A stretch of DNA of 64,000 bases from a virus, in the IMG/VR virus record IMGVR_UViG_3300037336_000025, positions 1 to 64,000 of that record. One strand, given 5' to 3'. The position numbers and the translations under genes were made by a program. Of this stretch, positions 9,557 through 14,452 are shown piece by piece. The notes under the pieces were generated by a model, which worked only from the letters and a program-made list of their open reading frames with translations, did not search any database and had not been told where the DNA came from. Numbering within the stretch: position 1 is the stretch's first letter; every line of letters starts with the position of its first letter.

Positions 9557-12112
9557 ATGTTTTTAAGACAATTATTTGAAGACGGTGGCAACCACATTAC
9601 ATTCTGCTTTGGCAGGTTTAATCCTCCTACCATTGGTCATAAACAGCTCTTTGATGTAATGAGCAGGCAGGGCGGTGATGTTAAAATATTCACTAGTCAA
9701 AGTCAAGACCCTAAAAAGAATCCTCTAGACTACGCTACGAAGATTAAATTCTTAAAGTTGATTGTACCAGAATACGCAAACAATATAGTTAGTGATGCAG
9801 GACTAAACACAGTTGTTAAAGTTGCAAGTCATTTATACAATCAAGGTTATCGTGATGCTACGTTTGTGGCAGGCAGTGATCGATTAGAAGAAATGAAAAA
9901 ACTCCTAGTAGCATATAATGGAGTAGAAGGTAAGAGTCATGGCTATTACAAATTTGATGTACTTGACTTTGTGTCGAGTGGCGAAAGAGAAGACGGTGCC
10001 GAAGGCGTTGCTGGTGTTAGTGCTAGTAGCGCTAGAGCTGCTGCTGCCACAGGCGATCTAGAAAAGTTTGCAGAAGCAACAGGTGCAGGGCAATATGCCA
10101 AAGCATTATATTCCGATGTACGTAAAGGCATGGGTATTAACAACAGTATAGAAGAAAACAATATGAGATCAAAAGAATTTACTCCTGCAGAGAAGCCAAG
10201 AAACTTTGTGGCCAAGAACGCTAAAATGGGCGGTGCTGGTCAGCACACGGATAAAAAGAAAGCTGAGAAACAGGGCGATGTCAAGCACAAAGGCAAAGAG
10301 TATGCCGAAGGCATGGCGGAGGGCGGCGGCGGTGGAGTCAGACAGTGGGCCAATCAAGTTCGCAAAGATCACGGTGCCGATGTCAAGTTTAGAAATCGTC
10401 AAGAAGGCAGCGGAGCAGTAGACAGTATTATTGCTAAAAATAGTCAAGGTGATATAGTGGGCGTATTCAATCGCAAGACTAATCACCCTACAGTATTTGA
10501 GCCAAAGACGGGTGTGGCGGAGGCCACTGGTGACAAGCCTTTCGACAACATGATGAAAAAAGTCACAAAGACTCCTACCGCTAAAGCAAGAAATACAGAA
10601 CGCATAAGACAAAAAAGAGAACGTGAAGAAGAAACACGTGATCGACTTAAAGGTGGCTTCGGTCCGAGCCCTGCAAATAAGTTAAGCATACGCGAACCAA
10701 AGGAAGGTAGCAGTGGCGCTATGGCCAATGCTGCAAGTCGATTGGTTAACAAAGATGATGGCAAAGTTGCAAAACTTCGAGCAGCTGGAGACAAGCGTCG
10801 TGAAGACCAATTAAAAAGCAGAAACATTGCCAAAAAGAATGAAGATGCAGCAAGTGTAGCGGAAAGTGATCCAAGTGGGCTGATGCATGCTGCCCGCCAT
10901 CTCAACAAAGAATTTCGTATCACTGCTGAAGTAGATGGTGTAGCAAAACGTGCTCGAGTGCAAGCGCAGAGTTCTAGAACAGCACAAGAAAAATTCATGA
11001 AACGCTATCCTACTGCACAGATACACAATGTTGAAGATATAACACAACAGATGAGTGAGACGGGTGTGGCGGAGGGTGGATTTTTTGATCCAGATCGACC
11101 CAATATTGGTGATGTAGTTAAACATAAACATAGTGGCGCCATGGGTCGAGTTAAAAAGATAGGAACACAAGGTGGCACTACTACGGTGTATTTCAAAGAT
11201 GCCAAAACAGGCGCAATGAATTATGGTGAGTGGAAGAAGCACGTGTTTCCAATTAAAAAGCAAGGTGTGGCGGAAGGTTCGTTTGGTTCAGGATATGGCA
11301 GGGTGTTTACTCTATATGTCAACACCGGCGAGAAGCCACCAACCAAGACCAAGACCAAAAAGTTTAAGCGTGAAGATGATGCTGTGGCCTGGGCAGAAGA
11401 CTATGCTGACACACACGACCAATATCCAACCCTCCAGATGGAAATAAAAGATGACAACGGTGGCGTGGTATGGGAACTAGAGGAATCACAGGGTGTGGCA
11501 GAAGGTTCATTTGGTAGTGGATTCAACGGTCCGTTCACCGCAGTGGTCAACACTGGTGAGCGTCCTAAATCAAGAACCAAAACTAAAAAATTCAAACGTG
11601 AGGATGATGCCATACTCTGGAGCGAAGACTGGTTAGAAGACTTTCCGCAGTATGTGTATGCTACCATTGAAGTCAAAGACTCAAACGATAATGTAGTTTG
11701 GCAAAGCGATGACGAGCAGGGTGTGGCAGAAGGTGAATTAAACGAGCTGATAGGTATGAACCAAGGCCCGGTAAAAAGAGATGTACCCCAACGAAAGAAA
11801 CCAACATTTGCTGAACTGGTTAAAAAGTCAACTGATAAACGATCAGCACTACAACGACAAAAAGATGGTGGCAAGAAAAACTGGTTTGCGGAAGACGATC
11901 ATGAAGGCATGTATAGCCCGCAAGCAATTAAGATGGGAAACTATTTCATCAAAGAATTTAATTTAACTGATGAAATGGATAAACAATTAGCAATTGAGAT
12001 AGTCGATAATTGTTTAGAGAGTGATTTGACTGATCCGGCTGAAATTAGAAAACAAGTGATAAAATACTTAAAACAAAGTGGAACAATTGTACAAAGTCGC
12101 AAAATAGGATAA
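9557..12112 (+). CDS. NMNAT-like nucleotidylyltransferase fused to modules separated by G-V-A-E sites (candidate capsid-internal polyprotein)
   Basis: 851 residues. Residues 1-8 (MFLRQLFE) resemble a T4 capsid-targeting segment. Residues 14-190 form a nucleotidylyltransferase domain: [10 protein letters not shown] (19-28, an HxGH variant), FVAGSDR (103-109) and VSASSAR (154-160, the ISSTxxR-like site), as in NadR/NMNAT enzymes. After a Lys-rich stretch come modules of mostly 67-114 residues, each ending in MAE, VAE or GVAE: Glu 255, 322, 436, 506, 573, 649 and 725. Module 507-573 looks SH3-like; 574-649 and 650-725 are a duplicated 76-residue domain. The sites fit the [hydrophobic]-x-Glu rule of T4 prohead protease, so processing into small internal proteins is inferred. 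The NMNAT part may act in the virion precursor or in NAD metabolism. Confidence 0.8.
10507..11733 (+). repeat. Dispersed GC-rich micro-repeat coding G-V-A-E-G
   Basis: The core GGTGTGGC(G/A)GA(G/A)G occurs at 10511, 11063, 11264, 11492 and 11720, always in the same frame (GGT-GTG-GCx-GAx). The first two copies share an identical 17-mer starting GACGGG (10507-10523 and 11059-11075). A related GGCATGGCGGAGG lies at 10310. The GTG-GCG-GAG codons are GC-rich against an AT-rich background that usually uses GTT, GCA and GAA. Confidence 0.85.
11276..11731 (+). repeat. 228-bp tandem duplication (76-residue module, two copies)
   Basis: Copies at 11276-11503 and 11504-11731. Both encode GSFGSG(Y/F), then VNTGE(K/R)P, then a shared [12 protein letters not shown] block, and end E-x-QGVAE. 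The central block is nearly identical while the ends have diverged, so the duplication is not very recent. Confidence 0.88.
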
Positions 12113-12446: not shown

Positions 12447-12640
12447 AACAATACCGTGTAACTTATAATGTCGATAAAGGCGAAGGCGATGAATGCGTAC
12501 TAGATGCAAACGATGCCTTACATAAAATGAAGGAAGGAATGTTTCTCGGAAGTGTTCCGGGTGTTGACACCTATCTAGTATATCCTGAACCTCGAAGTGT
12601 AGATTCAGATGAAAAAATTAACCCGTATAGTCAAGTATGA
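12443..12640 (+). CDS. Small hypothetical protein
   Basis: 65 residues, acidic, beginning [25 protein letters not shown], which looks like a small alpha/beta fold. No motif I recognise. ATGA overlaps at both ends with the Fe-S carrier and the following gene show it is part of the operon. It lacks the capsid-targeting-like N-terminus of its neighbours. Confidence 0.6.
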
Positions 12641-13179
12641 AAGCAAATGAAATTTTAACAGAAGCAGTCAAGCAACGTCTTGACGCTAAGTGCTGGAAAG
12701 GCAAACATAAAGAAGGCACCAAAATTAAAGGTGGCGTTAGAGTTAATAATTGTGTGCCTAACGAAAGTCTGCACCAAGAGTTCGACATGATTGAAAGCAT
12801 CATTGAACAGATTGCAGATTATCATGCTATCGACAGTGACCTTGTATGGGAAGATTTATCAAATCTCACAGACGACGAGCTATATGTGTTTGCTGTTACC
12901 CAACCGGTTAACGAAGATTGGCAAAAAGCCAATAAGAAAGACAAGACTGATGGTATGAGCAAGAAAGCCGTTAGTGCGTATCGTAGAGAAAATCCAGGTA
13001 GTAAATTAAAGACTGCGGTAACTACTAAGCCTGGCAAGTTAAAGAAAGGTAGCAAGGCTTCAAAGCGTCGAAGCAGCTATTGTTCTAGATCCGCTGGACA
13101 ACAGAAAATGCATAACATTAGCTGTAGTAAAACTCCGGACAAGGCAATCTGCAAAGCACGTAGGCGCTGGAACTGCTAA
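12637..13179 (+). CDS. Candidate capsid-internal basic protein with targeting-like N-terminus
   Basis: 180 residues. The start [11 protein letters not shown] matches the T4 capsid-targeting pattern (short, amphipathic, ending x-x-Glu before a small residue). Next come a Cys/Lys-rich block (CWKGKHKEGTKIKGG, about 19-33), an acidic helical middle (about 45-90), and a strongly basic Cys-containing C-terminal domain (about 104-180, with SAYRRENPGSKLKTAV and KASKRRSSYCSRSAG) of a kind I recall from other phage internal proteins. The basic tail suggests DNA binding inside the head. It overlaps the previous gene by ATGA and the next by one base. Confidence 0.7.
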   Translation: MKANEILTEAVKQRLDAKCWKGKHKEGTKIKGGVRVNNCVPNESLHQEFDMIESIIEQIADYHAIDSDLVWEDLSNLTDDELYVFAVTQPVNEDWQKANKKDKTDGMSKKAVSAYRRENPGSKLKTAVTTKPGKLKKGSKASKRRSSYCSRSAGQQKMHNISCSKTPDKAICKARRRWNC

Positions 13180-14195
13180 TGAGAGCAAGTGAATTTATCA
13201 CTGAAAACTTTGCCGACGGCAAGAAGCCGGGACGTAAAGGTCTAGCAAAACGCTCAGGTGTTAACACTAAAGCTAGTGTAAGTAGTCTACGAAAGACTGC
13301 AAAGAATAGCACAGGTGAAAAAGCTCGCATGGCACATTGGATGGCTAACATGAAAGCCGGTCGTGCCAAGTCTGAAGACATTGAAGAAGGATGGAAAGAC
13401 TGGGTAGCAGGCGGTGCTATGGCACTAGGTGCTTTAGGTGCTAATGCAGGTGATATTGTGTCACAGGTTGCAGAGAAAGGTGATACGGTTTATAGTATTG
13501 CTAGAGACAACGGTATTAGTCCTGCTGTTATTATGAAACTAAACGGATTTACTAATGCTACTAAACTAACACCCGGACAAGAAGTAAAAGTTCCTGATGT
13601 TTATACAGACGAAAAACCCGCTGCTAAAAAAGCAGAAAAGAAACCAGAAGTTAAAAAAATAGAACCAAAAGCAGAGCCAAAGGCTGCATTGGCGTCAACT
13701 AATGCACACGAAAACTTTTTAATTAAAACAGCAAGAGCTGCTGGCATTAAAGGAATAGAACTTGCTGCATTCTTATCGCAGGTTGCTCATGAAAGCCACG
13801 ACTTTCAAAGCATGGTAGAGTACGGAGGCAGTTTGGACTTCCGCAAATATGATCCTAAGTATGCTCCTAAGAAAGCTAAAATATTAGGCAATACTAAAGT
13901 AGGCGACGGTGCAAAGTACAAAGGTCGTGGATACATTCAAATCACCGGCAGGTACAACTACGGTATTGCTGGTGAAGCAATTGGCATAGATTTAGTAAGT
14001 AATCCTAAGCTAGCAGAAAAACCTGCGGTTGCTGCAAAGATTGCTATTTGGTACTGGAAACTTAGAGTACAACCAAATGTCGACGACTTTAGTAATGTTA
14101 GAGCTGTTACTAAGCCTATTAATCCGGGATTGCGTGGTCTAGAAGATCGTAAGAGCAACTTTAAAGATTATAAGACAATGGTTGCTGCTTTATAA
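13179..14195 (+). CDS. Virion-type LysM-GH19 peptidoglycan hydrolase with capsid-targeting-like N-terminus
   Basis: 338 residues. Residues 1-9 (MRASEFITE) resemble a capsid-targeting segment, followed by a basic region (about 13-65) and a possible second cleavage site DIEE-GW (67-72). A short hydrophobic Ala/Gly stretch is followed by a LysM domain (about 95-140, KGDTVYSIARDNGISP). After a Lys/Pro/Ala linker (about 145-175) comes a GH19 domain with VAHESHDF (catalytic Glu near 205), YKGRGYIQITGRYNY and a C-terminal LRGLEDRKSNF block. It would bind and cut peptidoglycan. Late context and the targeting-like start suggest delivery in the particle rather than a role as endolysin, which the gene at 2559 fills. 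Confidence 0.82.
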   Translation: MRASEFITENFADGKKPGRKGLAKRSGVNTKASVSSLRKTAKNSTGEKARMAHWMANMKAGRAKSEDIEEGWKDWVAGGAMALGALGANAGDIVSQVAEKGDTVYSIARDNGISPAVIMKLNGFTNATKLTPGQEVKVPDVYTDEKPAAKKAEKKPEVKKIEPKAEPKAALASTNAHENFLIKTARAAGIKGIELAAFLSQVAHESHDFQSMVEYGGSLDFRKYDPKYAPKKAKILGNTKVGDGAKYKGRGYIQITGRYNYGIAGEAIGIDLVSNPKLAEKPAVAAKIAIWYWKLRVQPNVDDFSNVRAVTKPINPGLRGLEDRKSNFKDYKTMVAAL

Positions 14196-14206: not shown

Positions 14207-14452
14207 ATGAAAATACGTGAAATATTCGAGACTGCAACTGCTGGTGCGACATCTAGTGCTAATATTGCCACTGTTGTAAGCCCTCAGCTAAGTCCCGGTT
14301 CTGCACGTGGAAAAACCAGCTACACCGGAAGCCCAGGAAAAAGTGGTACTAAAGCACCGCCGCAACCTAAGCCAAAGAAACAAACCCCCACTGATAACGC
14401 ACTAGATTCCAAAACTAATATATTTGGCACTGGTACAGCAATCAAAAGATAA
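14207..14452 (+). CDS. Small candidate internal protein with targeting-like N-terminus
   Basis: 81 residues starting MKIREIFE-TA, which fits a capsid-targeting segment with cleavage after Glu8. The rest is Ser/Thr/Gly/Pro-rich and basic, with no hydrophobic core, so it is probably disordered. It has its own late promoter box with leaderless spacing. The next late box overlaps its stop. Function unknown; packaging into the head is inferred from the N-terminus and the neighbours. Confidence 0.62.
   Translation: MKIREIFETATAGATSSANIATVVSPQLSPGSARGKTSYTGSPGKSGTKAPPQPKPKKQTPTDNALDSKTNIFGTGTAIKR

Follow-up and report, generated by a model that had tools for sequence, protein, structure and literature searches.

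An in-frame cassette array as a probable virion polyprotein in an uncultured T4-like phage

Phage T4 injects a small, classic group of internal proteins that act in host takeover and against restriction. They bear targeting leaders of 10-19 residues that are removed by the prohead protease gp21, which cuts after L/I-x-E (PMC9026906), and one of them, the mature IPI*, has 76 residues (PMC3012670). Here we describe a gene at positions 9557-12112 (+) of a 64,000-nt window, i.e. the whole stretch of DNA analysed, positions 1 to 64,000 of the IMG/VR contig IMGVR_UViG_3300037336_000025 (186,312 bases, labelled G000); window coordinates are used for this gene and its neighbours. The gene is one frame of 851 aa, in which the leader MFLRQLFE is followed by a cytidylyltransferase-family domain and then by Glu-terminated segments. 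It probably encodes a virion polyprotein, that is, an in-frame cassette array of small head proteins that would be freed by the prohead protease; we infer the cleavage from sequence comparisons.

With the T4 proteins IPI, IPII, IPIII and Alt (PMC9026906, PMC3012670) the locus has in common a short leader ending [LI]-x-E and a genome that contains a gp21-type protease and gp23, and the median module of 75 aa is close in size to the 76 residues of IPI*. In contrast to the T4 proteins, many mature units would lie in each frame, with further cut-like sites between them and V or M at the P3 position, an enzyme domain stands in front, and the DNA of the junction is itself fixed and serves for the exchange of modules. 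In T4, gp21 also cuts the scaffold gp22 and further core proteins several times per chain, into fragments (PMC9026906). Unlike those of gp22, the pieces here look like folded, separately evolving modules. The Rhs/CDI polymorphic toxins likewise swap variable modules at a conserved motif, in Rhs also the site of cleavage, but have one C-terminal toxin per protein and self-cleavage, whereas the present locus has module arrays that would be cut by a prohead protease. Rickettsia palindromic elements (PMC10969869) are likewise short DNA elements translated in frame within unrelated genes; in our case, however, it is a non-palindromic seam of ~20 nt that is conserved, while the payload varies (163 module clusters sampled). 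The repeated seam between payloads recalls integron cassettes, as an analogy only. Literature searches with the motif string and related concepts returned nothing relevant, and no description was found of a module seam that is in frame and conserved as DNA in virion-type genes; the cassette aspect is without a described equivalent among the literature searched, and the polyprotein would be a variant of the T4 internal-protein kind.

The 851-residue frame and its nucleotidyltransferase domain

The segments of the frame and the copies of its junction DNA repeat (family D1) are the following, where L-numbers denote other loci of the comparison.

9557-9580 (+): N-terminal leader MFLRQLFE, a capsid-targeting-like propeptide ending L-F-E (family leader comparison)
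9581-10321 (+): segment 9-255, cytidylyltransferase-like and DUF7230-like (residues 213-249), ending GMAE (PF01467, PF23876, phrog_3041)
10322-10522 (+): module 256-322, ending TGVAE; recurs in L018 in another gene, with a different module at this place in the near-identical L010
10523-10864 (+): segment 323-436, ending ASVAE (Glu boundaries)
10865-11074 (+): module 437-506, ending TGVAE (Glu boundaries)
11075-11275 (+): module 507-573, SH3/Tudor-like fold with a disordered GVAE tail (AlphaFold, Foldseek); also in other genes of L037 and L040
11276-11503 (+): module 574-649 (GSFGSGYG...SQGVAE), missing from L010 and found in L018
11504-11731 (+): module 650-725 (GSFGSGFN...EQGVAE), common to L010, L018 and L037
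11732-12112 (+): C-terminal segment 726-851 and stop, partly missing in L010; from nt 2337 of the gene onward 100% identical
10505-10530 (+): junction DNA repeat, copy 1
11057-11082 (+): junction DNA repeat, copy 2
11258-11283 (+): junction DNA repeat, copy 3
11486-11511 (+): junction DNA repeat, copy 4
11714-11739 (+): junction DNA repeat, copy 5

The junction glutamates are residues 255 (GMAE/G, the slash marking the boundary), 322 (GVAE/A), 436 (SVAE/S) and 506, 573, 649 and 725, the last four all GVAE/G; the segments after Glu 255 measure 67, 114, 70, 67, 76 and 76 aa and are followed by a 126-aa tail. GVAE occurs five times in the protein, whereas 5000 shuffled versions of its sequence contain 0.04 on average and 2 at most; [GS][VM]AE occurs seven times against 0.07 expected from shuffles. 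When all open reading frames (ORFs) of at least 100 aa in the 186-kb record are considered, GVAE is found six times, five of them within this frame. An initial annotation of this DNA had recorded the frame, the leader, the seven Glu positions and the MAE, VAE or GVAE ends; all are exact, and chance is ruled out by the shuffles. Its observation was correct yet understated: the conservation of the junction as DNA and its role as the breakpoint of recent module swaps, both described below, were absent from it, as was the presence of this punctuation in many unrelated genes of related phages.

Modules 574-649 and 650-725 are tandem paralogues. Module 507-573, modelled in isolation, reached an AlphaFold pLDDT of 79, with values below 50 for its final four residues, i.e. 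a disordered GVAE tail. Foldseek gave it a weak similarity (E 0.03-0.1) to the RNA-polymerase-binding Tudor/CarD folds of PcrA/UvrD and CarD, which, coming from a single-sequence model, is only a hint that the module could target the host RNA polymerase. The entire protein modelled without an alignment had an uninformative pLDDT of 43 and found no match in a sequence search of the PDB.

The N-terminal domain matches Pfam PF01467 (CTP_transf_like) with 29.9 bits (cut-off 21), contains the HxGH-type motif and is, as judged from these profiles, a cytidylyltransferase-like nucleotidyltransferase. It matches the cytidyltransferase family phrog_3041 with an E value of 2.5e-45 and the NMNAT family phrog_3462 with 0.083 only; the NMNAT-like, NAD-metabolism label given initially has no support other than the superfamily that the two have in common. 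Residues 213-249 resemble DUF7230 (PF23876) at E 7e-4, under Pfam's cut-off. The cytidylyltransferase has its nearest counterparts in cyanophages and in Methylophilales phages. The S-SM2 homologue of the 851-aa protein is the cluster T4-GC190, a cytidyltransferase that was detected in purified S-SM1 virions by mass spectrometry (PMC3037559). The cyanophage T4-GC190 proteins have the homologous N-terminal domain and a leader such as MKSFFQFLSE/A; in contrast to ours, the S-SM2 version is 408 aa long and has no GVAE array. The leader MFLRQLFE fits the T4-type rule (~7-19 residues, ending [L/I]-x-E), and among the family leaders recovered by the motif scan, 41 out of 41 distinct ones end in [ILVMF]-x-E ahead of the catalytic domain.

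A junction conserved as DNA and as protein, and the exchange of modules

A protein search of IMG/VR yielded 80 loci, the contigs examined being metagenomic and mostly partial. The GVAE punctuation of the initial annotation was sought in related phages and found there: a scan for DNA encoding EQGVAEG showed that the [EK]QGVAE/G junction is encoded in at least 120 IMG/VR stretches, including many unrelated genes. In 77 of 80 loci the motif is read in frame as part of an ORF, often alongside several more junctions. Its conserved DNA core of 20 nt is AGCAAGGTGTGGCGGAAGGC. Across 165 non-redundant junctions, positions -17 to +3 around the Glu codon are conserved, third codon positions included, with sharp edges and uninformative flanks. 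The V codon is GTG in 134 of 149 cases and the A codon GCG in 134 of 165, against a usage of 26% and 11%, respectively, in the same ORFs. The third positions of QGVAE carry 1.48 bits of information (n=310), compared with 0.37-0.88 for five other shared peptide motifs, which are small samples of 6 to 15 sequences.

The reading frame was assessed on seam copies retrieved by DNA, blind to codon position. Every one of the 276 copies with no or one mismatch lies in one and the same frame, and of 153 exact 17-nt copies, 151 are read as QGVAEG. With up to two mismatches allowed, the Glu codon shows 12 synonymous changes versus 1 other; the V of the junction shows 13 synonymous changes, 3 to M and 1 to A, and the Q is freely swapped for E or K. 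When junctions were gathered with a V/M/I pattern at P3, 228 were obtained, with V in 205, M in 17 and I in 6. The junction is conserved both as DNA and as protein.

The 21-nt seam is virus-specific, with 100 copies in 84 viral loci, many of which were fetched with the seam motif itself. Several other origins or roles were considered for it. A bacterial origin was dropped, the 257 Gb of bacterial and archaeal genomes containing 3 isolated matches, none of them in a junction array and no host being readable from them. A homing site or a Chi-like sequence was set aside, the window holding a single weak copy outside the polyprotein gene. That the seam is a DNA element without any function in coding was discarded, as its near-exact copies all sit in one frame. 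A Rickettsia palindromic element or a miniature inverted-repeat transposable element (MITE) was also set aside: only two imperfect inverted repeat pairs are present, neither of them flanks modules, and the seam is asymmetric.

Splitting the ORFs at the junctions gave 227 internal modules (207 distinct) that fall into 163 clusters with a median of 75 aa. The C-terminal modules of the polyprotein matched none of 50,697 phage records. Across the IMG/VR relatives the nucleotidyltransferase domain recurs, while C-terminal modules are gained or lost and are present in other genes. Between the window and L010, the 768 nt that lead up to GGCATGGCGGAGGGC are 99.9% identical, and the modules beyond are unrelated; L018 and L037 are 99.8% identical over 440 nt, then have two modules versus one and rejoin in CARGGTGTGGCGGAAGG, from where 1107 nt are 99.1% identical. 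Near-identical genes thus bear different modules, and the breakpoints are inside the junction. Since a RecA-family gene is present in the genome, these swaps could plausibly arise by homologous recombination across the short seam.

GVAE modules are also C-terminal in two ORFs that match phrog_13484, a virion structural protein (L123, 3833-6217, and L131, 2384-4804), where the usual leader type is absent.

Cleavage-like boundaries and the weighing of the explanations

The junctions were compared with the leaders and with the capsid protein. The record encodes a gp21-type prohead protease (G000 90036-90671; Peptidase_S77 at 90093-90542, E 2.3e-23) and the gp23 major capsid protein (G000 91791-92960, E 3.2e-83). 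The two were found in an identical set of 6 among 45 contigs, to which all three contigs longer than 150 kb belong, this co-occurrence being assessable in large contigs only. By analogy with T4, the cut site of gp23 is predicted at YLAE/SATAGATSAGNVAT, i.e. YLAE/SATAGATS, and relatives have LAE or LKE at this position, with LME in Sinorhizobium phage Phosso. One SATAGATSAGN-like module head follows the gp23 LAE, a leader IFE and a junction IAE alike. The same module heads are also found flush after the leaders of stand-alone genes and after GVAE, for example MRATEFITE/DWNKVN and GVAE/DWQKVN, and offset 0 is the mode (41 N-termini, the next commonest offsets having 9 each). Modules whose upstream sequences differ keep one fixed register. 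A Glu precedes the KYKxSIxC module in 31 of 31 contexts, with [ILVMF]xE in 28; the AQQAAIA module in 22 of 22, with [ILVMF] at P3 in 20; and the DWxKVN module in 8 of 8, with [ILVMF] at P3 in all 8. In cultured cyanophages, where the DNA seam is absent, shared modules follow VKE, VSE, IEE and LDE.

ORFs with at least two junctions begin with a leader-like sequence more often than others. With the first pattern used (Glu in the first 13 residues) the excess was the weaker one (21/51 against 280/1173, p 0.007); with [ILV]xE in residues 4-22, a wider pattern picked once more leader types had been seen and therefore somewhat post hoc, it was 30/51 against 224/1173 (p 1.3e-9). A Tat signal stands straight after GVAE midway in a 964-aa ORF (L140, 5748-8642, -) and likewise in L084 (2446-4167, +), and after a leader ending IAE in L114; the three Tat-type signals are DLSRRGFLKGAGAAG, DMSRRGFLRGASALA and DLTRRGFLGAMGAG, respectively. 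Since an internal Tat signal would need a free N-terminus, these proteins support release by cutting, and, after release, the modules with such signals may be exported.

The cultured cyanophages S-SM2, S-B43 and DSL-LC02 (L303-L305) also encode Lys-rich modular proteins, whose boundaries are of the [VIL]xE type. In S-SM2 and DSL-LC02 their genes are flanked by those of the terminase, and in S-B43 the gene, annotated as structural protein, is immediately upstream of the one for the large terminase.

From these comparisons we infer a route in which the 8-residue leader would direct the 851-aa protein into the prohead core, as capsid-targeting sequences do for T4 internal proteins, and the phage's own gp21-type (Peptidase_S77) protease would remove it after LFE. 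The same protease could cut each [VM]-A-E junction behind its Glu. The head would then contain the cytidylyltransferase piece together with some seven small mature proteins, and a part of these may pass into the host along with the DNA. The near-fixed ~20 nt at each junction would double as the seam for in-frame module exchange by recombination, the gene gaining, losing or swapping a whole module together with its cut site.

Several observations weigh against this proposal. V or M at the internal P3 departs from the L/I-x-E described for T4 gp21 (PMC9026906); we therefore term the internal sites gp21-like and not canonical T4 sites, V at P3 being also found in many leaders and at cyanophage module boundaries. 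A few junctions are broken in L018 (GVAK, GVVG), and cutting at every junction is therefore not essential. The family homologues of HTVC008M, GAP32 and Deifobo have no leader, and several GVAE-bearing proteins have no recognisable one either. Finally, the Glu boundary is found in 0 of 18 cases for the DHEVQMA modules and in 10 of 41 for the CWxGY modules.

The modules could alternatively be mobile, or recombine, in frame without any proteolysis, the junction being a DNA seam only and GVAE a neutral flexible linker in an uncut protein. The DNA conservation beyond what the codons need and the breakpoints within the junction are in agreement with it, but the Glu codon changes almost only synonymously, the frame is strict, the [VIL]xE register is kept at boundaries without the DNA motif, cultured cyanophages included, and the junctions are equivalent to the leader sites and to the gp23 cut site; we regard this explanation as improbable. 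Somewhat less probable again is a conventional multidomain protein that enters the head in one piece and loses its leader alone, the variable C-terminal domains reflecting normal phage mosaicism. The family homologue found in virions (PMC3037559) would suit such a protein, as would some cyanophage versions with a C-terminal SH3-like stretch and no obvious cut site before it; however, it does not predict the invariant Glu at P1, the flush equivalence of leader and junction or the internal Tat signal. An assembly artefact, by which unrelated modules would be joined at short repeats of the metagenomes, might be suspected from the GVAE-array records being all metagenomic and from the unmatched C-terminal modules of the window. 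It is very unlikely, as the reading frames remain open through as many as eight junctions, many independent IMG samples have the same junctions, module order is common to separate samples, and the shared cores are of ~20 nt, the usual assembly k-mers being longer.

The prohead-protease polyprotein put forward in the initial annotation is well supported as to its punctuation by protease-like sites, on the comparative evidence of the fixed [VIL]-x-E register, the equivalence of leaders and GVAE, the presence of gp21 and gp23 and the family homologue in S-SM1 virions, with cutting, packaging and injection being putative; its NMNAT/NAD part is not supported.

Neighbouring genes and significance of the array

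Downstream of the polyprotein gene, three further genes encode proteins with leaders.

12637-13179 (+): leader-bearing neighbour with a C-terminal DUF6321 (domain search)
13179-14195 (+): leader MRASEFITE/N, then LysM and GH19 (endolysin-type) domains (domain search)
14207-14452 (+): 81-aa protein MKIREIFE/TATAGATSSANIATVV, a short leader followed by an N-arm as in the predicted mature gp23

An A-type iron-sulphur carrier gene (PF01521, 12117-12446) lies between the polyprotein and the first of them. The L081 version of the DUF6321 neighbour has an inserted module, SVAE/...QGVAE. The LysM/GH19 protein contains an internal GWKDWVAGGAMALGALGANA stretch that is found after Glu in other polyproteins, and its capsid-targeting-like leader suggests that a lysis-type enzyme could be packed in the head. 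More than 15 loci have homologues of the 81-aa protein, and the leaders of these vary. The gp23 of this phage is closest to those of the jumbo phages Phosso, Vibrio 2.275.O and PA5oct (67-73% identity), and not to those of cyanophages.

We consider it an even call whether, in a large uncultured T4-like group, the ~20-nt seam is at once a recombination junction and a translated protease site, by which any module that lands there would be packaged, released and possibly injected. If true, many environmental T4-like phages would encode arrays of cut-to-release cassettes resembling the T4 internal proteins, which would explain their rapid diversification. The array would then amount to a platform for combinatorial delivery, of which 163 module clusters have been sampled up to now, modules with Tat signals included. 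A sequence rule, the residue after [VIL]-x-E, would show where hundreds of small unannotated proteins begin in their mature form, and the junction would represent a natural code for delivery in the phage head.
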